From the NCBI GenBank assembly GCA_023150875.1, contig JAKLKC010000003.1, positions 62,001 to 126,000 on the forward strand: a DNA stretch of 64,000 nt, given 5' to 3'. This DNA is from Myxococcota bacterium. Lineage in GTDB: Bacteria; Myxococcota_A; UBA796; UBA9615; JAKLKC01. The notes under the pieces were generated by a model. The model worked only from the letters and a program-made list of their open reading frames with translations. It was not told the origin of the DNA and searched no databases. Each line of letters begins with the position of its first letter. Positions within the stretch are counted from its first letter, which is position 1. Made by a program: the position numbers and the translations under genes. Below are positions 21,041 through 54,292 of this stretch, one piece after another.

Positions 21041-22084
<1,044 letters not shown>

Positions 22085-22136: not shown

Positions 22137-23258
22137 ATGGAGAACCCGCAGGGTCCGGGCGAGAGCAGCCAGGTCAACGAGATCCTGATGGCGGCGATCT
22201 CCCAGGGGGCGAGCGACGTGCACCTCCGGGCGGGACTGCCGCCGATGCTGCGGATCCAGGGGGGCTTCGTGCCCCTCAAGGACGCGCCCCGGCTCACCGG
22301 GGACGACACGGCCCGGGTCGCGGCGTCGCTGATGACCCGGTCCCAGCGGGAGAAGTTCCTGGAGAGCTTCGACCTGGACCTGTCCTACAGCGTCCGGGGG
22401 ATCGGCCGCTTCCGGGTCAACGTGATGCGGCAGCGGCAGAGCGTGGGGCTGGTCTTCCGCACCATCCCCGGGAAGATCCCCAACTTCGGGGACCTCGTCC
22501 TGCCGGAGGTGATCGGCCGGGTCGCCCTGGAGCGGCGTGGTCTCGTCCTGGTGACCGGCACCACAGGCTCGGGGAAGTCCACCACCCTGGCGGCGATGAT
22601 CGACCACATCAACACCCAGCGGGGCGGGCACATCCTCACCATCGAGGACCCCATCGAGTTCGTGCACCTCGACAAGCGCTGCGTGATCACCCAGAGAGAG
22701 GTCGGCTCCGACACCCGCACCTTCGCCACCGCCCTCCGGGCCGCCCTCCGCCAGGACCCCGACGTGATCCTGGTGGGGGAGATGCGGGACGTGGAGACCA
22801 TCGAGATCGCCCTCGCCGCCGCCGAGACCGGCCACCTGGTCCTCTCGACCCTGCACACCCTCAACGCGACCGAGACCATCAGCCGCATCGTGAGCCAGTT
22901 CCCGCCCTACCAGCAGAAGGCGGTGCGCCTCCAGCTCGCCTCGGTGCTCCGGGCGGTGATCAGCCAGCGCCTCGTACCCCGCGCCGACGGCGCGGGCCGC
23001 GTCCCCTGCGTCGAGGTGCTGGTGAACAGCGCCCGGGTGCGGGAGCTCATCGAGGACAAGGACCGCACCAAGGAGATCCCCGACGCCCTCGCCGACGGCG
23101 CCTCGACCTACGGCACCCAGACCTTCGACCAGTCGGTGTACCGCCTCTACAAGCAGGGGCTGATCACCTACGAAGACGCCCTCGCCCACAGCAGCAACCC
23201 CGACGACCTCGCACTGCGGGTGAGCGGGATCACCGGCTCCGCGGACCGCTGGTCCTGA
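22137..23258 (+). CDS. pilT: Type IV pilus retraction ATPase PilT
   Basis: 373 residues, canonical PilT architecture. The N-terminal PAS-like domain contains ISQGASDVHLRAGLPPMLRI. The motor domain has Walker A TGTTGSGKSTTLAAMID (about 141-149), Asp box HILTIEDPIEFVH, Walker B DVILVGEMRDVETIEIAL, and His box ETGHLVLSTLHTLNATETIS. It powers pilus retraction as a cytoplasmic hexamer. Located between recA and alaS without other pil genes. It is one of three PilT-family genes in the window and has the most standard layout. Confidence 0.93.
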   Translation: MENPQGPGESSQVNEILMAAISQGASDVHLRAGLPPMLRIQGGFVPLKDAPRLTGDDTARVAASLMTRSQREKFLESFDLDLSYSVRGIGRFRVNVMRQRQSVGLVFRTIPGKIPNFGDLVLPEVIGRVALERRGLVLVTGTTGSGKSTTLAAMIDHINTQRGGHILTIEDPIEFVHLDKRCVITQREVGSDTRTFATALRAALRQDPDVILVGEMRDVETIEIALAAAETGHLVLSTLHTLNATETISRIVSQFPPYQQKAVRLQLASVLRAVISQRLVPRADGAGRVPCVEVLVNSARVRELIEDKDRTKEIPDALADGASTYGTQTFDQSVYRLYKQGLITYEDALAHSSNPDDLALRVSGITGSADRWS

Positions 23259-41065: not shown

Positions 41066-41102
41066 CCTGTGCGGGCAGGGTCGGGGCCGTGCGGAAGGTC
41101 GC

Positions 41103-43640
41103 GTGGCCCTGCTGTTCTTCAAGTCCGAGCGCAACGCCTCGCTCCAGCGGATCCGCGAACGGAGCTGGGCCACCCTCGCCGAGAGGGACGAGCTGTTCGC
41201 CCACGTCTCCGGGCTCGACGACCTCCGGATCCAGGAGTTCGTCTGGATGCTGGGCAGCCCGGACTCCGACGTGCGCCAGCTCGGAGCCCGCCTCGCCCGC
41301 CGCTGCCACGACCCCGCCGCCGTCCCGGTGCTGCTCAAGGAGGCACAGGCCCAGAGCCGCCCCCAGGTCCAGCGCCTCATCGCCAAGGTCATCGCCGATC
41401 TGCCCCGGGGCGTGCTGGTCCCGGCCCTCCTGGAGAGGCTCGCCAAGGGGGACCTGAACGAGAGGCTCCGCGTCCTCGACGTGTACGAGACCCATCCGGA
41501 CCTCCCGGACGTCGGCCTGGTCCTGGCGCTGCTCCGGGACGCCGATCCCGAGGTCCGCCGCCGCTCCCTCACCCGCCTCTCCTCCCGGCCCGCCGGCGCA
41601 ATGGACTCCCGGGTGGAGGAGCGCCTGCTCTCCCTCCTGGAGGACGAGGACGCCGCGATCCGCCTCCTCGCCCTGACCTGCCTGGGGGACGCGCCGTCCC
41701 CCCCGGCGAGGGCCCGGATCCTCGCCCTCCTCTCGGACTCCGATCCCGGCGTGCAGCAGAAGGCCCTGGAACACCTCTCGCGGAACGCCGTCGTGGACGA
41801 CGCCGAGACCGAGAGGGAGCTGATCGGGCTCCTGGCCAGCGACGCCAACCCGGTGCGGGTGGCGGTGCTGCGGGTCCTGCTGGGCGCGGCGGACCAGACC
41901 GCCGTGGTCCGCCGGATCCTGCTGTTCTCGAAGACCATCCCCGGGTGGGCGCGGGAGCGGCTCACCCTGAGCCTCAAGGAGCTGGGGCAGGAGCTCGTCG
42001 CCCCCGCCGTCGCCCTGATGCGGGACCCGGAGCCCGAGGTGCGCCTCGTCGCCCTGAGCGTGGCGGGCCTCTACGACACCCCCGAGGTCCTGGACGCGAC
42101 CCTCGCCCTGCTGGACGACCCCGACGAGTGGATCCGGATCACCGCCGTCGAGCAGCTCGGGCGCACCGGGGACGCCCGGATCGTGCCGCGCCTCCTGCCC
42201 CTGCTCAAGGAGGACGCCCTGCGGTGGGCGACCATCGAGGCCCTGGGGGCCATCGGCGACGAGCGCGCCCTGCCCGCGATGGTGTCGCTGCTGGAGGACG
42301 AGCGCGAGGAGACCCGCCTCGAGGTGCTCAACGCCATCCAGCGCTTCGGCAGGCCCGAGATCGCCCCCCAGCTCCAGCGCTGCGCCCTGACGGACCCCTC
42401 CCGGGTGGTGCGGGACCGCGCCCACGAGGTCCTGGGGCGGCTCCGGGGCGGCGACGGCGCGGAGGGAGCGGGCCCGGTCTCGACGTTGGCCCAGCAGAGC
42501 ATCCGGATCCGCGCCGCCGGCGAGGTCACCCGCCTGGACCGCATGCTCATGGACGCCCGGCGCCAGGGGGCCTCGGACTTCCACCTGTCCGTCGGCCTGC
42601 CGCCCACGGTGCGCCTGCACGGGGAGCTCGTCCCCCTGGACGCCCCCCCGGTGAGCCCCGGCGACGCCGAGACCCTGGTGCGGGAGATCCTCTCCCCCCG
42701 CCAGCAGGAAGTCCTGGACGCCCACAGCCAGGTGGACTTCTGTCACACCATCGAGAACGTCGGCCGCTACCGCGCCAACGCCTACCGGCAGCGCCTCGGC
42801 CTGTGCGCCGTGTTCCGGGTGATCCCCACCCAGGTCCCCACCTTCCACGACCTGGGGATCCCCGGGCACCTGGCGGACCTGGTGAACTACAAGCAGGGGC
42901 TGATCGTGGTCGCAGGGCCCTCGGGGAGCGGAAAGTCCACCACCCTCGCGGCGATGGTGAACCTCATCAACGAGTCCAAACGGGACCACATCCTCACCAT
43001 CGAAGACCCCATCGAGTTCGTCCACCCCATGAAGAACAGCCTGGTGAACCAGCGGGAGGTGAGCCGCCACACCGCCAGCTTCGCCAAGGCGCTGCGGGCC
43101 GCCCTGCGGGAGGACCCCGACTGCATCGTGGTGGGCGAGATGCGGGACGGCGAGACCATCGCCATGGCGATGTCCGCCGCCGAGACCGGCCACCTCGTGA
43201 TCGCCACCCTCAACACCACGTCGGCTCCCAAGACCGTGGACCGCCTGGTGGAGTCCTTCCCGCCCCAGGAGCAACCCCAGGTCCGAATGATGCTCAGCGA
43301 GTCCCTGAAGTGCGTGATCTCCCAGCAGCTCCTGGCCCGCAAGGATGGAAAGGGCCGGGTCGCCTGCTTCGAGGTGCTGATGAACACGCCCAACGTGTCG
43401 GCGCTGATCCGCGACAACAAGACCTACCAGCTCCCCTCCGCGATGCAGATCGGCAGGGCCCACGGGATCGTGCCCCTGGACGACGCCCTGCTGGACCTGG
43501 TGCGCCGGGGCCTCGTCACCCCCGAGACCGCCTGGCTCCGGGCCCGCAAGCGGGAGCTGTTCGAGGACCTGGTCCCCGACGAGTTCCGCGCCAGCCATCG
43601 CGGCGAGGTGGCCGCCGCCACCGAGGCGCCCCCGGCCTGA
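41103..43640 (+). CDS. HEAT-repeat array fused to a PilT-type motor ATPase
   Basis: 845 residues. The frame is open from far upstream, but GTG 41103 follows GGAAGG (41093-41098) by 4 nt and gives MALLFFKSERN as N-terminus; another in-frame GTG is at 41025. Residues about 30-460 are HEAT/armadillo-type helical repeats (VWMLGSPDSDVRQLGARLAR, LLRDADPEVRRRSLTRLSSR, LLDDPDEWIRITAVEQLGRT, LGAIGDERALPAMVSLLEDE). A complete PilT unit follows from about 478: LDRMLMDARRQGASDFHLSV, Walker A AGPSGSGKSTTLAAM (about 604), Asp box HILTIEDPIEFVH, Walker B DCIVVGEMRDGETIAMAM, His-box region ETGHLVIATLNTT. In that His box an Asn replaces the usual second His (TLHT becomes TLNT). A second pilT-like gene follows 32 bp downstream. 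Confidence 0.9.
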   Translation: MALLFFKSERNASLQRIRERSWATLAERDELFAHVSGLDDLRIQEFVWMLGSPDSDVRQLGARLARRCHDPAAVPVLLKEAQAQSRPQVQRLIAKVIADLPRGVLVPALLERLAKGDLNERLRVLDVYETHPDLPDVGLVLALLRDADPEVRRRSLTRLSSRPAGAMDSRVEERLLSLLEDEDAAIRLLALTCLGDAPSPPARARILALLSDSDPGVQQKALEHLSRNAVVDDAETERELIGLLASDANPVRVAVLRVLLGAADQTAVVRRILLFSKTIPGWARERLTLSLKELGQELVAPAVALMRDPEPEVRLVALSVAGLYDTPEVLDATLALLDDPDEWIRITAVEQLGRTGDARIVPRLLPLLKEDALRWATIEALGAIGDERALPAMVSLLEDEREETRLEVLNAIQRFGRPEIAPQLQRCALTDPSRVVRDRAHEVLGRLRGGDGAEGAGPVSTLAQQSIRIRAAGEVTRLDRMLMDARRQGASDFHLSVGLPPTVRLHGELVPLDAPPVSPGDAETLVREILSPRQQEVLDAHSQVDFCHTIENVGRYRANAYRQRLGLCAVFRVIPTQVPTFHDLGIPGHLADLVNYKQGLIVVAGPSGSGKSTTLAAMVNLINESKRDHILTIEDPIEFVHPMKNSLVNQREVSRHTASFAKALRAALREDPDCIVVGEMRDGETIAMAMSAAETGHLVIATLNTTSAPKTVDRLVESFPPQEQPQVRMMLSESLKCVISQQLLARKDGKGRVACFEVLMNTPNVSALIRDNKTYQLPSAMQIGRAHGIVPLDDALLDLVRRGLVTPETAWLRARKRELFEDLVPDEFRASHRGEVAAATEAPPA

Positions 43641-43672: not shown

Positions 43673-44755
43673 ATGAAGCCGATGGATCGCCTCCTCACCC
43701 TCATGGTGGACCGCGGCGCCTCCGACCTGCACCTCGTCGCCGGCAAGGCGCCCATCCTGCGCCTCTCGGGCCAGATGGAGCCCCAGCGCTCCCGCGTGCT
43801 GTCGAACCGCGACTTCGTCGAGCACGTCCGGGCCATCGCCCCCGCCCGCCTGTGGGAGCGATACATGCTCACCGGCGACGTCGACTTCGCCTACGAGGTG
43901 CCCGATCTCGCCCGCTTCCGCGTCAACCTCTTCATGCAGGAGCACGGCTTCGGCGCGGTCTTCCGGATCATCCCCTCGAAGATCATGACGGTGGACCAGC
44001 TCGGGCTCCCCAGCCAGGTGGGCCGCGCCACCCGCTTGGAGGGCGGCCTGTTCCTGGTGACCGGCCCGACGGGCTCGGGCAAGTCCACCACCCTGGCGGC
44101 GGTGATCGACCGGATCAACAGCGAGCGCAAGCTCCACATCGTCACCATCGAGGACCCCATCGAGTTCGTCCACCCCAACAAGAGGTCGATCATCAGCCAG
44201 CGGGAGGTGGGCGCCCACGCCCAGGACTTCTCGTCGGCGCTGAAGGCGGCGGTGCGCGAGGACCCCAACGTGATCCTGGTGGGCGAGATGCGGGACCGTG
44301 AGACGATCTCCCTGGCCCTGGCCGCCGCCAGCACCGGCCTCCTGGTCTTCGGCACCCTCCACACCAACAGCGCGGCCAAGACCTGCGACCGCATCGTCAA
44401 CGTCTTCCCCACCGAGGAGCAGGACGGGGTGCGCTCGGTGCTGGCCGAGACCCTCCAGGGGATCGCCGCCCAGCAGCTCGTCCGCAAGAAGGGGGGCGGC
44501 CGCGTGGCGGCGGTGGAGCTGCTCTTCCGCACCCCCTCGCTGCCGACGCTGATCCGCGAGGGCAAGACCCACCAGCTCACCGGCCTGATACAGATGGGGC
44601 GGCGCCAGGGGATGATCGCCATGGACGACTCCCTGGCGGCCCTGGTCCAGGCGGGCACGATCTCCTTCGAGGACGCCTACGAGAAGGCCATCGACAAGGC
44701 GAGCTTCCGCGCCCTCCTGGGGGGCGTCCCCGAGGCGCCGGCGGCGATGGTCTGA
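43673..44755 (+). CDS. PilT-family type IV pilus motor ATPase
   Basis: 360 residues, standard length. N-terminal PAS-like part MKPMDRLLTLMVDRGASDLH followed by LVAG; Walker A GPTGSGKSTTLAAVID (about 130), Asp box HIVTIEDPIEFVHPNK, Walker B NVILVGEMRDRETISLAL, His box LLVFGTLHTNSAAKTCDRIV. C-terminal region GLIQMGRRQGMIAMDDSLAA is typical of PilT/PilU. It could be PilU-like (retraction accessory). It lies 32 bp after the HEAT-PilT fusion, suggesting an operon; the canonical pilT is 20 kb away at 22137. Confidence 0.92.
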   Translation: MKPMDRLLTLMVDRGASDLHLVAGKAPILRLSGQMEPQRSRVLSNRDFVEHVRAIAPARLWERYMLTGDVDFAYEVPDLARFRVNLFMQEHGFGAVFRIIPSKIMTVDQLGLPSQVGRATRLEGGLFLVTGPTGSGKSTTLAAVIDRINSERKLHIVTIEDPIEFVHPNKRSIISQREVGAHAQDFSSALKAAVREDPNVILVGEMRDRETISLALAAASTGLLVFGTLHTNSAAKTCDRIVNVFPTEEQDGVRSVLAETLQGIAAQQLVRKKGGGRVAAVELLFRTPSLPTLIREGKTHQLTGLIQMGRRQGMIAMDDSLAALVQAGTISFEDAYEKAIDKASFRALLGGVPEAPAAMV

Positions 44756-44866: not shown

Positions 44867-46177
44867 GTGTCCCGCGCCACCGCACCGCTCCTGTTCCTGG
44901 CCCTGCTCTGGGCCTGCTCCGACCACGACCTCTCCCTCGCCCCCGGCGACGGCGACCTCCCCTCCGGACCCGCCATCGCCGTCGACCCGTCCTCCCTGGA
45001 CTTCGGGGCGGTGCGGGTCGGCCGCTCCGGGGGCACCCTGCCGGTGACGGTCTCCAACGTGGGGACCGCCGCCCTGGACCTGCTGGGCCTGGAGCTGGAC
45101 AGCGCCTGGCCCGACGCCTTCCTGGTCACGGACCCCGCCGACGCCCGCCTCGACCCCGGCGCCTCCACCACCTTCTCGGTCACCTACGCCGCCACCGCCG
45201 AGGCCGCCCAGGGGCTCCGGGTCTCGGTCCGGAGCACCGATCCCGAGTCCCCGTCGGTCCCCGTGGACGCCTGGGGCGAGGGGGTGCGCCCCCGGATCCG
45301 CCTGACCCCGGACCTCCACGACTTCGGCGCGGTGCCCGGCGGCACCACCCAGACCCTCCTGGTGTCGATCCTGAACGAGGGCACCGACGCCCTCCGGGTG
45401 GACGAGGTCCGCATCGACGCCCCCAGCGGGGAGTTCGCCCTGGACCCCCTCCTGGACCACAACGGCGCCCTCCCCTGGTCCATCCCCCCGGGGGGAGACC
45501 TTCCGGTGCGGGTGGACTACGGCCCCCTGGACGACGCCGGGGACGTGTCGACGGTGACGGTGGTCTCCGACGACCCCGACCACGGGGAGGCGGAGGCGGT
45601 CCAGCTCGGGGCGGGCACGGGCTTCAAGGGCTTCAGCACCGGCTGGTACGTGTACGACGACGGGATCCCCTACGAGACGACCTCCAACCCCTCCCACGTC
45701 GTGGACCACCACGGGGACGAGGACCTCTACTGGTACGAGCCCAGCGGCGCCCACGGCCTCATCGACTCCGTGGACCCCACGACGGACTTCGCGGTGCTGC
45801 GGGACTACATCCTGGCCCACGCCCCCGCGCCCGTCGAGCCGACGGAGCCCTTCGACTACGACGCGGGGAGCACCCTGGCCACCTTCGCGTTCGCGACGTT
45901 CACCTACTTCCTGTGCGACTTCTACCTGGACCCCTCGGACGATGCCGCCCTCTACGAGATCCGCTCGGGCACGGTGGACGACGGGATCCAGGTGATGGTC
46001 AACGGCGCCATCCTGGGCCGCCTCTCCCTCGGGGAGGCGGGCCGCTCCTGGCCCCTCACCCACGCCTTCCCCGGGGCGGTGAACTCCCTGGTGGTGATCC
46101 TGGTGGACGACTCCCAGGTGAACAAGTACGTCCACGACCTCGCCTTCTACCGGGACGGGGTGCTGGTGACGGACTGA
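44867..46177 (+). CDS. Lipoprotein with two ASH/Hydin-type beta domains
   Basis: 436 residues, GTG start. Lipobox LLFLALLWACSDHD. Two ASH (ASPM-SPD-2-Hydin)/choice-of-anchor D-like immunoglobulin domains: IAVDPSSLDFGAVRVGRSGG (about 39-145) and IRLTPDLHDFGAVPGGTTQT (about 146-245). The C-terminal half (about 250-436) is a beta-rich module (GFSTGWYVYDDGIPYETTSN; GTVDDGIQVMVNGAILGRLS) of unknown family that looks like a carbohydrate- or collagen-binding jelly roll. It is followed by glgC, separated by 96 bp with a promoter-like element. Confidence 0.78.
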   Translation: MSRATAPLLFLALLWACSDHDLSLAPGDGDLPSGPAIAVDPSSLDFGAVRVGRSGGTLPVTVSNVGTAALDLLGLELDSAWPDAFLVTDPADARLDPGASTTFSVTYAATAEAAQGLRVSVRSTDPESPSVPVDAWGEGVRPRIRLTPDLHDFGAVPGGTTQTLLVSILNEGTDALRVDEVRIDAPSGEFALDPLLDHNGALPWSIPPGGDLPVRVDYGPLDDAGDVSTVTVVSDDPDHGEAEAVQLGAGTGFKGFSTGWYVYDDGIPYETTSNPSHVVDHHGDEDLYWYEPSGAHGLIDSVDPTTDFAVLRDYILAHAPAPVEPTEPFDYDAGSTLATFAFATFTYFLCDFYLDPSDDAALYEIRSGTVDDGIQVMVNGAILGRLSLGEAGRSWPLTHAFPGAVNSLVVILVDDSQVNKYVHDLAFYRDGVLVTD

Positions 46178-46273: not shown

Positions 46274-47539
46274 GTGGCCACGACGCGGCTCATCGCGGCG
46301 GTGATGGCGGGGGGCGTGGGCAAGAGGCTCATGCCCCTCACGGCGGAGCGCGCCAAGCCTGCCGTGCCCTTCGGGGGCATCTACCGGATCGTCGACTTCA
46401 TCCTCAGCAACTGCCTGCACTCCGGGATCCGCCAGATCCTGGTGCTCACCCAGTACAAGTCCGACTCCCTCAACCGCCACCTCATCCACGCCTGGTATCC
46501 CCTCTTCCCCCCGAGCCTCGGCTACATGATCGAGGCCGTGCCCCCCCAGCAGTGGGTCGGCGAGCGCTGGTACGCCGGGACGGCGGACTCCGTCTACCAG
46601 AGCTTCTTCCGGGTCCGGGACCTGCGCCCCGAGCACGTCGCCGTCCTCGCCGGCGACCACATCTACAAGATGGACATCCGCCGGATGTTCGAATTCCACG
46701 TAGACTCCGGGGCCGACGCCACCGTCTCGTGCATCGAGGCCCCCGTCGAAGAGGCCGCGGGCGCGTTCGGCGTCGCCGTGGTCGGCCCCGACGGCGAGCG
46801 CATCGTCTCCTTCGAGGAGAAGCCCCAGAAGCCCACCCCCATCCCCGGCCGCCCCGACACCTGCCTCGCCTCCATGGGGATCTACATCTTCCGCTCGAAG
46901 GTCCTGGACGACGTGCTGGAGGCCGGCCCCGGCCGCCAGCGCCAGTACGACTTCGGCACCGACATCCTGCCCTCCATGGTGGCCGGTGGCGCCCGGGTCT
47001 GCGCCTGGCAGTTCCGGGACGAGAGGGGCCAGCCCGGCTACTGGCGGGACGTCGGCACGGTGGACGCCCTGTACGAGGCCAACATGGACCTCGTCCGGCC
47101 CGTCCCCCGGCTGAACCTCTACGACGACGTCTGGCCCATCATCGGCCTGCGCCGTCACGTGCCCCCCGCCAAGTTCGTCTTCGCCCAGGCGGACGCCGAG
47201 GGGGGCCGGCGCGGCGAGGCCCACGACTCCCTGGTCAGCTCCGGCGTCATCGTCTCCGGCGGCCGGGTGAAGCGCTCGGTCCTCAGCCCCCGGGTGCGGG
47301 TCAACAGCTTCGCCTCGGTGGAGGACAGCGTGCTCCACGACAACGTCGACGTCGGGCGCTACGCCATCCTGCGCCGGGCCATCGTCGACAAGGGGGTCCG
47401 GATCCCGGCGGGGGAGCAGATCGGCGTCGACCTCGCCCGGGACCGCGCCCGCTTCACCGTGAGCGACCGAGGGATCGTCGTCATCCCCAAGAACTACCAG
47501 TTCGAGCCCCGCGCCGTTGGCCCCAGGGTCGAGACATGA
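46274..47539 (+). CDS. glgC: Glucose-1-phosphate adenylyltransferase
   Basis: 421 residues, GTG start with GGGGAGG upstream. Nucleotidyltransferase motif MAGGVGKRLMPLTAERAKPA followed by VPFGGIYRIVDF. Also WYAGTADSVYQSF, VLAGDHIYKMDIRRM, the YWRDVGTVDALYEANMDLV region, and left-handed beta-helix repeats toward the end. It makes ADP-glucose, the committed step in glycogen synthesis, and heads the coupled operon glgC-DUF4912-GH57-GH57-galT-glgA. The stop overlaps the next start (ATGA). Confidence 0.96.
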   Translation: MATTRLIAAVMAGGVGKRLMPLTAERAKPAVPFGGIYRIVDFILSNCLHSGIRQILVLTQYKSDSLNRHLIHAWYPLFPPSLGYMIEAVPPQQWVGERWYAGTADSVYQSFFRVRDLRPEHVAVLAGDHIYKMDIRRMFEFHVDSGADATVSCIEAPVEEAAGAFGVAVVGPDGERIVSFEEKPQKPTPIPGRPDTCLASMGIYIFRSKVLDDVLEAGPGRQRQYDFGTDILPSMVAGGARVCAWQFRDERGQPGYWRDVGTVDALYEANMDLVRPVPRLNLYDDVWPIIGLRRHVPPAKFVFAQADAEGGRRGEAHDSLVSSGVIVSGGRVKRSVLSPRVRVNSFASVEDSVLHDNVDVGRYAILRRAIVDKGVRIPAGEQIGVDLARDRARFTVSDRGIVVIPKNYQFEPRAVGPRVET

Positions 47540-47967
47540 GCGAGCCCAAGCACCCCCACCACCGCGTCGAGGCGCCGCCCCTCCTGCCGCCCCGCACCGG
47601 CGTCGCCGGGATCCGCGGCATGCCCCGGAACCCCCACTCCAGCTTCGTGTACTGGGAGCTCTCCCCCGATGACGAGGCGCGCCTCGCCGCGGCCCCGGGG
47701 GCGAGGGTGGTGCTGCTGGAGGCCGAGGGGGAGGGCTCCAGCGCCGTCGTCGGCGACGCGGCGGTCCCCACGGGCTCCCGCACCCGCCCCGCCCGGGGCG
47801 GCGAGTCCTACCGCCACGCCCTCGCCCTGCTGCACCCGGACGGCGGCATGGACCTCCTCCACGCCTCCCCCCGCTTCACCGCCCCCGGCGGTCACGGCGC
47901 CGAGGAGGACTTCGAGGCCGTCGCCGCCTACGCCCACCGCTTCGTTCCCCCCCTGGACGTCGGATGA
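47536..47967 (+). CDS. DUF4912 domain protein in the glycogen operon
   Basis: 143 residues. The motif HSSFVYWELSPDDEARLAAA is characteristic of DUF4912, a small beta-sandwich that resembles starch-binding/CBM48-like modules and often sits next to GH57 genes. The function is unknown; a glycogen-binding accessory role is an inference. Start overlaps the glgC stop and its own stop overlaps the GH57 start (ATGA both), so translation is coupled. Confidence 0.82.
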   Translation: MSEPKHPHHRVEAPPLLPPRTGVAGIRGMPRNPHSSFVYWELSPDDEARLAAAPGARVVLLEAEGEGSSAVVGDAAVPTGSRTRPARGGESYRHALALLHPDGGMDLLHASPRFTAPGGHGAEEDFEAVAAYAHRFVPPLDVG

Positions 47968-49583
47968 GAGCCTCCACCCTCCCCCTCCACGGTGCCCGGG
48001 GGCACCTGATGGTGGTCCTCCACGCCCACCTCCCCTACGTCCGCCAGCCCGAGCACCCCCGGTTCCTGGAGGAGGAGTGGTTCTACGAGGCGGTCGCCGA
48101 GACCTACGTCCCCCTCTACCGCGAGCTCCGGGCCCTCGCCGACCGGGGCGTCCCCTTCCGCCTCACCCTGGGGATCACCCCTCCCCTGGCGGAGATGTCC
48201 CGGGATCCCCTGCTCCGTTCCCGCCTGCGGGGCTACCTGGAGGACCGCCTGCGCCTCGCCGAGGCCGAGGTCGCCCGCACCCGCACCCACGATCCCCGCT
48301 TCACCGAGGCCGCCCGGGTGTACCTGGAGGTCTACGGCGAGGCCCTGCGCCTCTTCGACGAGCGCCGGGGCGACCTGCTGTCCTGCTTCCGCGAGCTGCG
48401 GGACGCGGGGCACCTGGAGATCGTCACCTGCGCCGCCACCCACGGCTACCTGCCCCTCCTCGCCACCCGGGAGGGGCGCCGCGCCCAGGTCCTCCAGGCC
48501 GTCCGCGCCCACCAGCGCCACTTCGGCGAGAGCCCCCGGGGGATCTGGCTCCCCGAGTGCGCCTACGCCCCGGGCCTGGACGAGCTGCTGGCCGAGGCGG
48601 GGATCCAGTACTTCTTCCTGGACCACCACGGGATCGTGGGGGCCGAGCCCCCTCCCCACGGCGTCCACGCCCCCGTCCGCACCCCCGGGGGCCGCTACGC
48701 CTTCGGCCGGGATCCCGAGGCGGGCCGGCAGGTGTGGAGCGCCACCGAGGGCTACCCCGGCGACGCCGCCTACCGGGAGTTCTACAAGGACATCGGCTAC
48801 GAGGCGTCCCTGGAGATGGTGCGGCCCTTCCTCCTCCCCGACGGCCGCCGCCACGGGGTGGGGATCAAGACCCACCGGATCACCGGCAAGGTGCCCCTGG
48901 ACCGCAAGGAGCCCTACGATCCCCGCGCCGCCCGGGAACGGGTGCAGCAGCACGCCGACCACTTCGTCGCCTCCCGGGTGGCCCAGGTGGAGGGGCTGGC
49001 CTCCTCCGGCGGCGGGCCCTTCGCCGTCGTCGCCCCCTACGACGCCGAGCTGTTCGGCCACTGGTGGTTCGAGGGGCCGGCCTTCCTGGGCGCGGTCCTG
49101 GAGCGCCTGGCCCGGAGCCCCGTCCGCTCCACCACCCCCGGGGAGTGGATCGACGGCGGCCTCCCCTGGCACGAGGGGCGCCCCGCCGCCAGCTCCTGGG
49201 GGGACGGTGGCTTCTACGACGTGTGGCTCAACTCCAGCACCGAGCACTACTGGCCCCACCTCCACGCCGCCGAACGCCGCATGGTGGCCCTCGCCCGGGA
49301 CCACCGGGACGTCGTGGACGGCCGGGCCGAGGACGAGGCGACGGCCCGCGCCCTCGCCCAGGCCGCCCGGGAGCTGCTGCTGGCCCAGGCGTCCGACTGG
49401 ACCTTCCTGGTGAGCGGCGGCACCGCCCCCGACTACGCCGACCGCAAGATCCGCCTCCACCTGGCCCGCTTCGGGCAGCTCCACGACCAGATCCGGCGCC
49501 GCGCCGTCGACGCCGAGGAGCTGGCGTCCCTGGAGGCCCTGGACAACCTCTTCCCCGACGTCGACTGGCGCCTCTGGGCGTGA
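47964..49583 (+). CDS. GH57 1,4-alpha-glucan branching enzyme
   Basis: 539 residues. The GH57 barrel starts HLMVVLHAHLPYVRQPEHPR. Catalytic Glu198 lies in GIWLPECAYAPGLDELLAE and acid Asp360 in VVAPYDAELFGHWWFEGPAF, spaced as in Thermococcus GH57 branching enzymes (E183/D354). The C-terminal helical part contains WLNSSTEHYWPHLHAAERRM and VSGGTAPDYADRKI. It makes alpha-1,6 branches in glycogen, replacing a GH13 GlgB. Starts at ATGA with the DUF4912 stop; the next gene begins at GTGA. Confidence 0.94.
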   Translation: MRASTLPLHGARGHLMVVLHAHLPYVRQPEHPRFLEEEWFYEAVAETYVPLYRELRALADRGVPFRLTLGITPPLAEMSRDPLLRSRLRGYLEDRLRLAEAEVARTRTHDPRFTEAARVYLEVYGEALRLFDERRGDLLSCFRELRDAGHLEIVTCAATHGYLPLLATREGRRAQVLQAVRAHQRHFGESPRGIWLPECAYAPGLDELLAEAGIQYFFLDHHGIVGAEPPPHGVHAPVRTPGGRYAFGRDPEAGRQVWSATEGYPGDAAYREFYKDIGYEASLEMVRPFLLPDGRRHGVGIKTHRITGKVPLDRKEPYDPRAARERVQQHADHFVASRVAQVEGLASSGGGPFAVVAPYDAELFGHWWFEGPAFLGAVLERLARSPVRSTTPGEWIDGGLPWHEGRPAASSWGDGGFYDVWLNSSTEHYWPHLHAAERRMVALARDHRDVVDGRAEDEATARALAQAARELLLAQASDWTFLVSGGTAPDYADRKIRLHLARFGQLHDQIRRRAVDAEELASLEALDNLFPDVDWRLWA

Positions 49584-51796
49584 GCGTGGACCGAGCCCGC
49601 GGCCCCTCCACCGCCGGTGGCGCCCCGGCGGGCGGCCACGAAGCCCTGCGCGTCGCGTTCCTGTGGCACATGCACCAGCCCGACTACCGCCACCCGGAGT
49701 CGGGGGAGGAGGTCATGCCCTGGGTGCGGCTGCACGCGCTCAAGGACTACTACGACGTGGCCCGGATCGTCGGCGAGGCGCCCCCCGGGGTGAGGATGAC
49801 CTTCAACCTCACCCCCGTCCTCCTCGTCCAGATCCAACAGTTGGAATGGCGTCCCTCCCAGGACCCCTTCTCGCGCCTCTCCCGGAAGCCCGTGGACCGG
49901 CTGCGCCTCGACGACAAGCTCTTCATCCTCCAGCACTTCTTCAGCGTGAACGAGGACCGGATGCTCCGGCCGCTGGACCGGTACGCCTGGCTCTACGAGC
50001 AGGTCCGGGCCGCCCACGGCCACCCGGAGCGGGTCCTCCAGCGCTTCTCGGACCAGGACTACCTGGACCTCCAGGTGCTGTTCAACCTCGCCTGGAGCGG
50101 TCGCACCCTGAGGGAGCGGCCGCCGGTGCGCCGGCTGCTGGCCAAGGGCCGCGGCTTCACCGAGGTGGAGAGGGACGAGCTGCTGGCCGTCCAGGACGCC
50201 TTCGTCGCCGAGGTCCTGCCCCTGTACCGCCGCCTCGCCGACGAGGGGCGGATCGAGCTGTCCACGACCCCCCTGAACCACCCCATCCTCCCCCTCCTGT
50301 GCGACCTCCAGGCCGCCCGGGAGGCCAACCCCCACTGCTCCGTGGACGGGATCTCCTTCCGCCACCCCGAGGACGCCCGGGAGCAGGTCGCCCGGGCCCG
50401 GGCCCTGGCGGAGGGGGCCCTGGGGCGGCGCCCCGAGGGGATGTGGCCGTCCGAGGGCAGCGTCTCGGAGGAGGCGGTCCGCCTCATGGGGGCCGAAGGG
50501 GTGCGATGGATCGCCACGGACCGGCAGGTGTTGGAACGCTCCCTCGCCCTCTCGGGGCGCCCCTCCGACCCCCTGGCCCACCTCACCCCCTGGCGGCTCC
50601 GGGGGGAGGGCAACCCCGCCACCTTCTTCCGCGACACCACCCTCTCGGACCTCATCGGCTTCACCTACTCCCGCTGGGAGCCCGAGGCCGCCGTGCGGGA
50701 CCTGCTGCACCGCGCGCGCTCCCTGCTCCAGTCCGTCCCCGATCCCGGCCGCGCCGTGCTGCCGGTGATCCTGGACGGCGAGAACGCCTGGGAGTTCTAC
50801 GCCGACCACGGGGTCCCCTTCCTGACCTGTCTGATGTCGGCCCTCGCCGCGGCCCCCGACGTGCGGGCGGTGACGATGTCCGAGGCCCTGGGGGCGGTGC
50901 CCGCCCGGGAGCTCCCCCGGCTGAGGGCGGGTTCCTGGATCCGCGCCGACTTCGACACCTGGGCCGGCCACCCCGAGAAGAACCGCGCCTGGGTCGCCAT
51001 CGTGGACGCCCGGTGCGAGCTGGAGGACCACCGCCGCAGGGGGGACGCCGATCCCGCCGCCCTGGCCAACGCCTACGACCACCTGCTTCGGGCCGAGGGG
51101 AGCGACTGGTTCTGGTGGCTCGGCGACGACCACTACACGCCGTTCAAGCGGGAGTTCGACGAGCTGTTCCGCCTGCACGTGGTGGCGGTGTGGCGAGCCC
51201 TGGGGGTGAGCCCGCCGGCCTACCTCTTCGAGCCCATCGCCGACCCGGCCCGGGCGGTGGCAGTCGAGACCCGGGAGCCCTTCCAACTCATTCGTCCCAC
51301 ATTGGACGGGGAGGCCCAACGCTACTACGAGTGGATGGGGGCGGGCTACTTCGACGTCGCCTTCCAGAAGGGGGCGATCTTCACCGGCGAGCCCCTGGTC
51401 CGTCGCGTCCACTACGGGTTCGACGAGGGGACCCTGTACCTTCGCCTCACGCCCCGGGAGGGACGGGCCGACGACGTGCTGGGGGAGGCGCGGGTCGAGG
51501 TCTGCGTGGACGACGCCGACCGGGACCGCCGCTGGACCTGGACTTTGGAGCCTGGCGGGTCCTGTCGCCTCCGGGACCAGGCCGGCGCCGAGGCGCCCCC
51601 CGGCAGGGTGGGCGTCGGCCTGGTGGTGGAGCTGGGGATCCCCCTGGCCTCCATGGACCTCGCCCCCGGACGCACCCTGCGCCTGCACGTCGAGATCGTC
51701 TCCCCCGACGGCCGGAGCGAGCGCCTGCCCCTGGAGGCCTCCATCCAGGCGGCGGTGCCACCGCCGGAGTTCAACCGCCTCAACTGGTCCCTATGA
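49580..51796 (+). CDS. GH57 alpha-amylase / glucanotransferase-type enzyme
   Basis: 738 residues, GTG start overlapping the previous TGA. The N-terminal GH57 barrel begins LRVAFLWHMHQPDYRHPESG. The probable nucleophile is Glu292 in GMWPSEGSVSEEAVRLMGAE, and the acid Asp399 in VILDGENAWEFYADHGVPFL. A C-terminal half (about 400-738) is the larger extra domain typical of COG1449-type enzymes (DWFWWLGDDHYTPFKREFDE and a beta-sandwich end). It likely trims or rearranges glucans. Amylase and 4-alpha-glucanotransferase activities cannot be separated by sequence here. Confidence 0.9.
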   Translation: MSVDRARGPSTAGGAPAGGHEALRVAFLWHMHQPDYRHPESGEEVMPWVRLHALKDYYDVARIVGEAPPGVRMTFNLTPVLLVQIQQLEWRPSQDPFSRLSRKPVDRLRLDDKLFILQHFFSVNEDRMLRPLDRYAWLYEQVRAAHGHPERVLQRFSDQDYLDLQVLFNLAWSGRTLRERPPVRRLLAKGRGFTEVERDELLAVQDAFVAEVLPLYRRLADEGRIELSTTPLNHPILPLLCDLQAAREANPHCSVDGISFRHPEDAREQVARARALAEGALGRRPEGMWPSEGSVSEEAVRLMGAEGVRWIATDRQVLERSLALSGRPSDPLAHLTPWRLRGEGNPATFFRDTTLSDLIGFTYSRWEPEAAVRDLLHRARSLLQSVPDPGRAVLPVILDGENAWEFYADHGVPFLTCLMSALAAAPDVRAVTMSEALGAVPARELPRLRAGSWIRADFDTWAGHPEKNRAWVAIVDARCELEDHRRRGDADPAALANAYDHLLRAEGSDWFWWLGDDHYTPFKREFDELFRLHVVAVWRALGVSPPAYLFEPIADPARAVAVETREPFQLIRPTLDGEAQRYYEWMGAGYFDVAFQKGAIFTGEPLVRRVHYGFDEGTLYLRLTPREGRADDVLGEARVEVCVDDADRDRRWTWTLEPGGSCRLRDQAGAEAPPGRVGVGLVVELGIPLASMDLAPGRTLRLHVEIVSPDGRSERLPLEASIQAAVPPPEFNRLNWSL

Positions 51797-51800
51797 GCCC

Positions 51801-52838
51801 ATGCCCGAACTGAGACACGATCCCATCCAGAAGCGCTGGGTCATCATCGCCACCGAGCGGTCGCGCAGGCCCTCCGACCTCCACGTCGGCTCGTCGGCGG
51901 TGGGGGACGCCGGGGCCTTCTGCCCCTTCTGCCCCGGCAACGAGTCCGCGACGCCGCCGGAGATCATGGCGATCCGCCCGCCGGGCTCCCACGCGGGGGC
52001 CCCCGATTGGAAGGTGCGGGTCGTCCCCAACAAGTTCCCCGCCCTGCGCATCGAGGGCAGCCCCGACCGGGAGGCCGCGGGGGTCTACGACCGGATGAAC
52101 GGGATCGGCGCCCACGAGGTGATCGTGGAGACGCCGGAGCACGGAACCTCCCTGGCGGACATGGACTACCGCGGGGTGGAGCGGGTGGTGCAGGCCTACG
52201 TCGCCCGGCAGGCGGACCTGCTGCGGGACCAGCGGTTCAAGTACGTGCTGGTGTTCAAGAACCACGGCGAGGTCGCCGGTGCCACCCTGTCGCATCCCCA
52301 CAGCCAGGTCATCGCCACGCCGGTGACTCCGCGCACCATCTCGACGGAGCTGACCTCGGCTCGGGAGCACTACCACCTGAAGGAGCGCTGTCTCTTCTGC
52401 GACGTGCTCGCCCAGGAGCTCCAGGCGGGGGCGCGGGTGGTGTGGAGCGACCCGATGTTCGCGGTGATCGCCCCCTACGCCTCCCGCTTCCCCTTCGAGC
52501 TGATGATCCTGCCCCGGCGGCACGGACACGCCATCACCGCCCTGACTCCCGAGGAGGTCTCGGGCCTGGCGCGCGTGTTGCGTGACACGTTGCGGCGCCT
52601 CAAGATCGCGCTGGGGGACCCCGCCTACAACTTCATGATACACACCGCGCCGAACCTGGACTACGAGCCCCGCCGGGTCACCTTCTGGCAGACGATCCCC
52701 TGGGACTTCCACTGGCACATCGAGATCATCCCCCGCCTCACCCAGGTGGCGGGCTTCGAGTGGGGCACGGGCTTCTACATCAACCCCACGGCACCCGAGG
52801 AGGCGGCGATGTTCCTGCGGGGGATCGAGCTGCGGTGA
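51801..52838 (+). CDS. galT: GalT-family nucleotidyltransferase (galactose-1-P uridylyltransferase-like)
   Basis: 345 residues. Opens LRHDPIQKRWVIIATERSRR; zinc-site Cys pair in FCPFCPGNESATP. The active-site motif is HPHSQVIATP (His165, His167), with HPHGQ in E. coli replaced by HPHSQ, as in many bacterial enzymes. A conserved second half (WDFHWHIEIIPRL) completes the two HIT-like domains. Standard role is the Leloir pathway; in this operon it might act on ADP- or UDP-glucose and Glc-1-P exchange. It begins 4 nt after the GH57 stop and its own stop overlaps glgA. Confidence 0.88.
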   Translation: MPELRHDPIQKRWVIIATERSRRPSDLHVGSSAVGDAGAFCPFCPGNESATPPEIMAIRPPGSHAGAPDWKVRVVPNKFPALRIEGSPDREAAGVYDRMNGIGAHEVIVETPEHGTSLADMDYRGVERVVQAYVARQADLLRDQRFKYVLVFKNHGEVAGATLSHPHSQVIATPVTPRTISTELTSAREHYHLKERCLFCDVLAQELQAGARVVWSDPMFAVIAPYASRFPFELMILPRRHGHAITALTPEEVSGLARVLRDTLRRLKIALGDPAYNFMIHTAPNLDYEPRRVTFWQTIPWDFHWHIEIIPRLTQVAGFEWGTGFYINPTAPEEAAMFLRGIELR

Positions 52839-54292
52839 GGGTCCTCCACGTCGCCGCGGAGTGCGCCCCCTGGGCGAAGGTGGGGGGGCTGGCGGACGTG
52901 ACCGGCGCCCTGCCCGCCGCGCTAAGCGCCGTGGGGGTGGACGCGGCCCTGGTCCTGCCCCTGTACCGCGAGGTGCGGGAGCGGGGGATCGAGGGGGAGC
53001 CGGTGGCGGGCCCCTTCCCGGTGCGCCTCGGGGGGAGGGCCTGGCCGGTGACCCTGAGGCGGGCCACCCACCCCGAGGGCTTCCCGGTGGTGCTCCTGGA
53101 GTGCGACGAGCTTTACGACCGGGAGGGGATCTACGTCGACCCGGGGACCCGGGAGCCCTTCCCGGACGACCTGGAGCGCTTCGGGGTGCTGTGCCGGGGG
53201 GCACTGTGGGCGGCGCAGGTCCTCGGCAGGTGGGACCTCCTCCACGCCCACGACGCCCACGCCGCGGCGGCGGTGGCGATGCTCGCCGCCGGCTACCGCC
53301 ACACGCCGCTGGAGTGGACGCGCTCGGTCCTGTCGCTCCACAACGCCGGCTACCAGGGCCTCCACCCCCTCGCGGCGGCGGCGACGCTGGAGCTGCCCCT
53401 CGGGGACACCCGCCCCGGGGGCCCGGCGGAGTTCTGGGGACGGCTCAACCTGCTCAAGGCGGGGATCTGCGCCGCCGACGGCCTGCACACCGTGAGCGAG
53501 ACCTACGCCCGGGAGATCGTCTCGGGCCCGGAGTTCGGCTTCGGCCTGGAGGGGGTGCTCCGGGAGCGGGCGGACCGCCTGGTGGGGATCCCCAACGGCA
53601 TCGACACCCGGGCCTGGGACCCGTCCCGGGATCCCCACCTGCCGGCCCGCTACGACGCCGCGGACCGGTCGGGCAAGGCGGAGTGCAAGCGCGCCGTTCA
53701 CCGCCTGGCGGGGTGGGACGAGTCCGACCTGTCCCGCCCCCTGCTGGCGGTGGTGAGCCGGCTGGTGGACCAGAAGGGCCCGGACCTGGTGTTGGAAGCC
53801 CTCCCCGCCCTGTTGGACTCCGGGGCGAGGCTGGTGGTCCTGGGCGCCGGGAGCCGGGAGTACGAGGACGCCTTCACCCGTGCCGCCGCCTCCCGCCCGG
53901 ACGGGATCTGGACGCGGATCGGCTTCGACGAGCCCCTGGCCCACCGCATCGAGGCGGGCGCCGACGTCTTCCTGATGCCCTCCCGCTACGAGCCCTGCGG
54001 GCTGAACCAGATGTACAGCATGAGGTACGGCACGGTCCCCGTGGTGCGCGCGACCGGGGGCCTCGCCGACACCGTCCTGGAGTGGGACCCGACCACGGGG
54101 CGAGGTACGGGGTTCCGCTTCGAGGCCCCCACCTCCGAGGCCCTCCTCGCCGCCACCGCGCGGGCGCTGGAGACCTACCGCGACCCCCACGCCTGGGCCC
54201 GCCTGGTCTGGAACGGCATGGCGCGGGACTTCTCGTGGGAGGGGGCGGCGGCGCGGTACAAGGACTGGTACGAGGGGGTGGGGAGGGGGTAG
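52835..54292 (+). CDS. glgA: Glycogen synthase (GT5)
   Basis: 485 residues, GTG start overlapping the galT stop (GTGA). N-terminal motif MRVLHVAAECAPWAKVGGLA followed by DVTGALPAAL contains the K-x-G-G-L ADP-glucose loop. Further GT5 motifs: LHAHDAHAAAAVAMLAAGYR, HNAGYQGLHPLAAAATLELP, GIPNGIDTRAWDPS, and MPSRYEPCGLNQMYSMRYGT. It elongates alpha-1,4 chains from ADP-glucose; all other operon genes act around this step. Lacks the extra carbohydrate-binding domain of some GT5 enzymes. Confidence 0.95.
   Translation: MRVLHVAAECAPWAKVGGLADVTGALPAALSAVGVDAALVLPLYREVRERGIEGEPVAGPFPVRLGGRAWPVTLRRATHPEGFPVVLLECDELYDREGIYVDPGTREPFPDDLERFGVLCRGALWAAQVLGRWDLLHAHDAHAAAAVAMLAAGYRHTPLEWTRSVLSLHNAGYQGLHPLAAAATLELPLGDTRPGGPAEFWGRLNLLKAGICAADGLHTVSETYAREIVSGPEFGFGLEGVLRERADRLVGIPNGIDTRAWDPSRDPHLPARYDAADRSGKAECKRAVHRLAGWDESDLSRPLLAVVSRLVDQKGPDLVLEALPALLDSGARLVVLGAGSREYEDAFTRAAASRPDGIWTRIGFDEPLAHRIEAGADVFLMPSRYEPCGLNQMYSMRYGTVPVVRATGGLADTVLEWDPTTGRGTGFRFEAPTSEALLAATARALETYRDPHAWARLVWNGMARDFSWEGAAARYKDWYEGVGRG

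Follow-up and report, generated by a model that had tools for sequence, protein, structure and literature searches.

In the window, by which the whole analysed stretch of 64,000 nucleotides is meant, a gene on the forward strand encodes a PilT-type motor ATPase with an array of HEAT repeats in front (HEAT-PilT), followed by a gene for a short PilT. The fusion is part of a conserved two-gene unit, whose members are inherited together and have lost complementary parts of the active site. Judging from their sequences, the two proteins would be two subunits of one dedicated retraction-type motor for the type IVa pilus (T4aP) of the cell, for which the probability is put at about 0.5, and a mixed ring is the arrangement that they suggest. 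As far as could be found, HEAT-PilT and its partner are undescribed so far.

HEAT-PilT gene and its product

In HEAT-PilT, a flexible linker joins the HEAT repeats at the N-terminus to a full PilT motor. In the following, cis designates residues on the ATP-binding subunit (the second HIS-box histidine, His2, and the catalytic Glu), and trans the Thr and the first histidine (His1) of the HIS-box loop of the neighbouring subunit. The features of the gene are:

41093..41098, + strand: Shine-Dalgarno-like GGAAGG, 4 bases 5' of the GTG start (read in the sequence)
41103..43640, + strand: HEAT-PilT gene, 845 aa (one uninterrupted frame, HEAT_2 and TIGR01420 matches, orthologue starts)
41103..42446, + strand: HEAT solenoid, residues 1-448 (Pfam HEAT_2, AlphaFold2 model, conservation)
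42447..42530, + strand: flexible linker, residues 449-476 (pLDDT below 50 at 450-473; poorly conserved)
42531..43562, + strand: PilT motor domain, residues 477-820 (TIGR01420, PDB fold matches)
42915..42941, + strand: Walker A GPSGSGKST, residues 605-613 (motif reading)
42999..43025, + strand: Asp box IEDPIEFVH, residues 633-641 (motif reading)
43113..43148, + strand: Walker B DPDCIVVGEMRD, residues 671-682, with catalytic Glu679, cis (alignment, motif reading)
43182..43226, + strand: HIS box ETG-H697-LVIATL-N704-T; T695 and H697 (trans) kept, second His replaced by N704 (cis)

The GTG at 41103 is likely the start codon, as orthologues share the start position. G+C content at codon position 3 is 0.95-1.0 in the gene, from about 41211 on.

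Residues 1-448 hold about 13 HEAT repeats. HEAT_2 (PF13646) was recognized by Pfam in five stretches (E=7.9e-40, 135.5 bits against a threshold of 27.7), and the AlphaFold2 model has 27 consecutive helices at residues 2-448, with a mean pLDDT of 79. These above-threshold matches and the helical solenoid place the arm among the HEAT-repeat proteins. Residues ~241-440 are much more conserved and include the motifs GW-R-R (281-286) and DxWxR (341-345); by its conservation, this half is likely the contact face of the arm. A plasmid origin of the HEAT part was rejected, as a plasmid collection searched with this part gave no match.

The motor domain matches TIGR01420 with E=1.1e-129 and 432.6 bits (cut-off 319.1) over residues 478-817, that is, positions 2-341 of the 343 in the model, and its top PDB fold matches are all PilT (6ojx with TMt 0.90, 5fl3, and 3jvv). 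The catalytic set of PilT/PilU is present, with K611, E634, E679, and the NTD arginines R557 and R572. Of the two HIS-box histidines expected of PilT/PilU, H697 is kept and the other is N704. The AIRNLIRE region corresponds to VSALIRDNK at residues 765-773, where the LIR core is kept and the remainder changed. HEAT-PilT is therefore like PilT in its motor fold, Walker A, Asp box, Walker B, Arg fingers, and LIR core, but differs in its length, the solenoid in front, the Asn at the second HIS-box position, and the constant partner gene.

The initial annotation had described about 430 residues of HEAT repeats joined to an intact PilT unit, and this is confirmed by the HEAT_2 and TIGR01420 matches together with Walker A, Asp box, and Walker B; motif reading likewise confirmed the Asn in TLNT. 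Its view of a binding solenoid on a retraction-type motor was right, but the conservation of the family and the partner gene had been missed.

Partner gene and the two-gene unit

The partner is encoded on the same strand:

43673..44755, + strand: partner, single-domain PilT, 360 aa, 32 bases 3' of HEAT-PilT (TIGR01420 E=2.5e-131; conserved neighbour)
44330..44374, + strand: partner HIS box STGLLVFGTLHTNSA; first His (trans) lost, second His (cis) kept

In related loci, a short PilT lies directly behind HEAT-PilT on the same strand and in fixed order wherever the contig continues. The sole exception is genome G035, where the short PilT, 63% identical, is 22 kb from HEAT-PilT on the same contig. 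No third gene is common to the pair loci; since any other neighbour was found in at most 4 of 14 loci, HEAT-PilT and its partner form an isolated unit. In the subclade of L057 (10696-13254), L218, and L225, the partner has a long low-complexity N-terminal extension, which in L057 is about 500 aa long with repeats such as GSAIRRTGQMRSPLRQSGDQ.

The arrangement resembles PilT-PilU of Pseudomonas, Vibrio, and Acinetobacter, where two PilT-family genes are also adjacent and the second is apparently dedicated to the first. PilU, however, forms its own clade, has both HIS-box histidines (44/44), and is without AIRNLIRE, whereas the partner has lost His1, keeps LIR-E, and is outside the PilU clade. 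Identity of the partner with PilU was rejected by tree and motifs, and HEAT-PilT does not group with PilU in the tree either.

Non-HEAT tandem PilT-PilT pairs (L058, L059, L085, L086, L089, L114, and L132) have the same order and a His1-less second gene. Such pairs occur in several phyla, and their type is distinct from PilT-PilU. Two further forms have a HEAT and PilT chain with a His1-less partner behind it, namely HEAT-PilT type 2 and a short-HEAT type (L007/L020, L052, L055, L217, and L228-L239). Type 2 branches as a clade of its own, and its HEAT part is longer (~560-730 aa); the short-HEAT type is inside the main HEAT-PilT clade and has far fewer repeats. A second HEAT-PilT in the genome of the window (L020, contig C95 of G000, ~83-87.5 kb) is longer, with a 1102-aa frame, and has its own His1-less PilT partner.

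Reciprocal losses in the active site

An alignment was made of the PilT domains from HEAT-PilTs and their partners, from the other tandem pairs, and from ordinary PilT and PilU; the cis and trans roles of the HEAT-PilT residues were taken from DotB and PilB structures. In DotB, CTDn brings Walker A, Glu235, and His260 to the contact, and CTDn+1 brings Thr251 and His253 (PMC6153414). In GmPilB, H420 is in contact with both the gamma-phosphate and, in the adjacent packing unit, T411 (PMC5424180). DotB numbering is converted to that of HEAT-PilT by a constant offset of 444, by which Glu679 and residue 704 are assigned to cis and Thr695 and His697 to trans.

His1 (H697) is kept in 66 of 66 first genes and lost in 61 of 61 second genes; the latter are 59 plus two partners, L219 and L220, that were first filed under 'other'. 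The loss in second genes may go back to one or a few old events, and the 61 cases are then not independent. No first gene and no ordinary PilT or PilU deviates at T695, which second genes have lost in about seven events. Second genes, like ordinary PilT/PilU, always have His2 (residue 704) and Glu679; in first genes only, His2 was lost in about five events (about four of them among HEAT-PilTs) and Glu679 was lost or weakened in about four. The trans residues are intact even in those HEAT-PilT lineages that are without both His2 and Glu679. All ordinary PilT/PilU rows keep both HIS-box histidines (of 139 rows in the class 'other', 137 are ordinary PilT/PilU and the remaining two are HEAT-PilT partners). 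The pairs in a later batch of 20 loci, which were fetched once the rule of directional loss had been formulated, conformed to it without exception.

The TLNT variant is not unique to the window, as the second HIS-box histidine is gone in 13 of 59 HEAT-PilTs (12 with Asn and one with Gln); both histidines are kept in the other 46. Going by the alignment, reciprocity is complete only in some lineages, that of the window included. The initial annotation had suggested that the Asn may alter coupling, which is plausible; given the opposite HIS-box loss in the partner, TLNT makes better sense as one side of a reciprocal change than as an isolated variant. Arg665 was also considered as a diagnostic trans residue and was dropped; it is weaker in partners, but R/K-variable in ordinary PilT and PilU too.

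Proposed mixed-ring motor and its alternatives

HEAT-PilT of the window is broken in cis and intact in trans, and the partner is intact in cis and broken in trans, so the two would match as neighbours in a ring. Intact trans residues in HEAT-PilTs with broken cis residues make most sense if they serve the site of another protein. Both proteins would then sit in one hexameric ring, most simply alternating as 3+3. At the productive interface the partner would bind ATP in cis, with its intact Walker A, Glu, and second HIS-box His, and HEAT-PilT would complete this site in trans through Thr695 and His697. The opposite interface would be degenerate in this organism, with Asn704 facing Leu. In this genome, three interfaces of a mixed ring would be complete and three degenerate on both sides, against six half-sites in a homohexamer of either protein. 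The HEAT arms, on their flexible tether, probably dock the motor to a putative cytoplasmic or polar partner, and docking would set where or when the motor acts on PilC.

A 3+3 ring would fit the C3 geometry of solved PilT hexamers, which are often in alternating C3 open-closed states (6ojz, 6olk). The complementary residue loss would also fit a heterohexameric motor of the ASCE/RecA type. The genome has one PilO locus, one PilB above the cut-off, and nine PilT-family proteins; given the single PilO locus and PilB, the pair most likely serves the single T4aP, alongside canonical PilT. To our knowledge, no motor of this superfamily has so far been clearly established as heterohexameric. A structure of a mixed ring is not known to us either, and this second point counts against such a ring. 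The stricter form of the proposal, an obligately mixed ring of two PilT paralogues in which the cis and trans halves are split and only one paralogue carries a solenoid arm, is tentative and stands slightly below even odds.

A further point against a mixed ring is that the best studied pair, PilT and PilU, assembles into two separate homohexamers (PMC6821130). HEAT-PilT and the short PilT could likewise cooperate without mixing, each in a homohexamer of its own, and the two rings could be stacked or alternate on PilC. The HEAT-PilT ring would then regulate or recruit, and that of the short PilT would be the motor. This is possible, with the odds leaning clearly against it. PilU is encoded beside PilT and depends on it, both being homohexameric (PMC6821130; PMC6762196), and the losses of Glu679 and His2 in HEAT-PilT fit a ring of little ATPase activity. 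Such a ring has no evident use, however, for trans residues that stay invariant where its own cis residues are broken, and every partner is without the trans His that its own ring would need, while PilU has retained both histidines.

A role outside retraction is improbable. HEAT-PilT, together with the short PilT, would then be a solenoid-tethered regulator or traffic ATPase in a process such as polarity, secretion, or DNA handling. The position of the pair away from the pil cluster (C66, C11), the neighbours that are not common to the loci, and several PilT paralogues elsewhere without known retraction role (PMC5065972) are in line with it, but both proteins are far above the PilT/PilU family cut-off and have retained the LIR core of AIRNLIRE, the retraction motif.

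The preferred reading, a mixed-ring retraction motor, touches questions in the literature. Mixed rings of type IV filament ATPases, and switching between retraction motors, are discussed as open (PMC6711533). Opposite and directional losses in the active site make the mixed-ring idea directly testable, because sequence alone tells which residue of which protein to restore or break. Myxococcus xanthus retracts pili even without PilT, and the motor responsible is unknown (PMC9108774; PMC5065972). In a good part of Myxococcota, the HEAT-PilT pair is a candidate for an additional retraction motor, and the HEAT arm could couple motor activity to a cellular signal.

Distribution and origin

A profile search of 379 Myxococcota genomes revealed HEAT-PilT of full or near-full length in 38. 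With type 2 and the short-HEAT type, 63 of these genomes are above the threshold in all, a few of them with fragments. The HEAT-PilT of locus L057 is from Myxococcales bacterium SP4258 and was found in a scan of genome contigs that was dominated by ordinary PilT. In two other phyla (148 and 149 genomes, 297 together) no HEAT-PilT was found, and only single-domain PilT matched. HEAT-PilT is an old, conserved family within Myxococcota and not a one-off. A frameshift, which the initial annotation had named as a possible artefact, a misassembly, or a chance joining of two genes has a negligible probability and is already refuted by the 38 independent genomes, in which this architecture recurs in full or nearly so at 36-45% identity.

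Nor had the fusion been catalogued before. Pfam and NCBIfam are without a family model for it and name only the two parts, a literature search gave no paper on it, and a survey of myxobacterial T4P systems covers PilT homologues with HEAT unmentioned (PMC6060248).

In a quick tree, with deep branches partly unresolved, first genes group apart from second genes and the subgroups on the two sides mirror each other, which suggests an old duplicated pair that was already present before HEAT. First genes of the nearest relatives (L058, L059, and L085) are without HEAT and have a different, short, unrelated N-terminal domain, with a weak DUF4388-like match below the cut-off in the two that were scanned. 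HEAT was therefore gained within the Myxococcota lineage, in one event or two. An MshEN domain on the non-HEAT sister genes was also considered and is unsupported by Pfam.

Surroundings of the pair in the window

A third PilT-family ATPase is encoded at 22137-23258 (+), directly behind recA (21041-22084) and with cinA before it. This recA-pilT linkage resembles that of Geobacter pilT1 (PMC5065972). Beside the pair, at 44867-46177 (+), there is a gene for a putative lipoprotein with Ig-like domains of the HYDIN/ASH type, which is not common to the related loci. It is followed at 46274-54292 (+) by a glycogen-type cluster, with a nucleotidyl transferase with GlmU-like C-terminus, two GH57 proteins, and more apparent carbohydrate genes.
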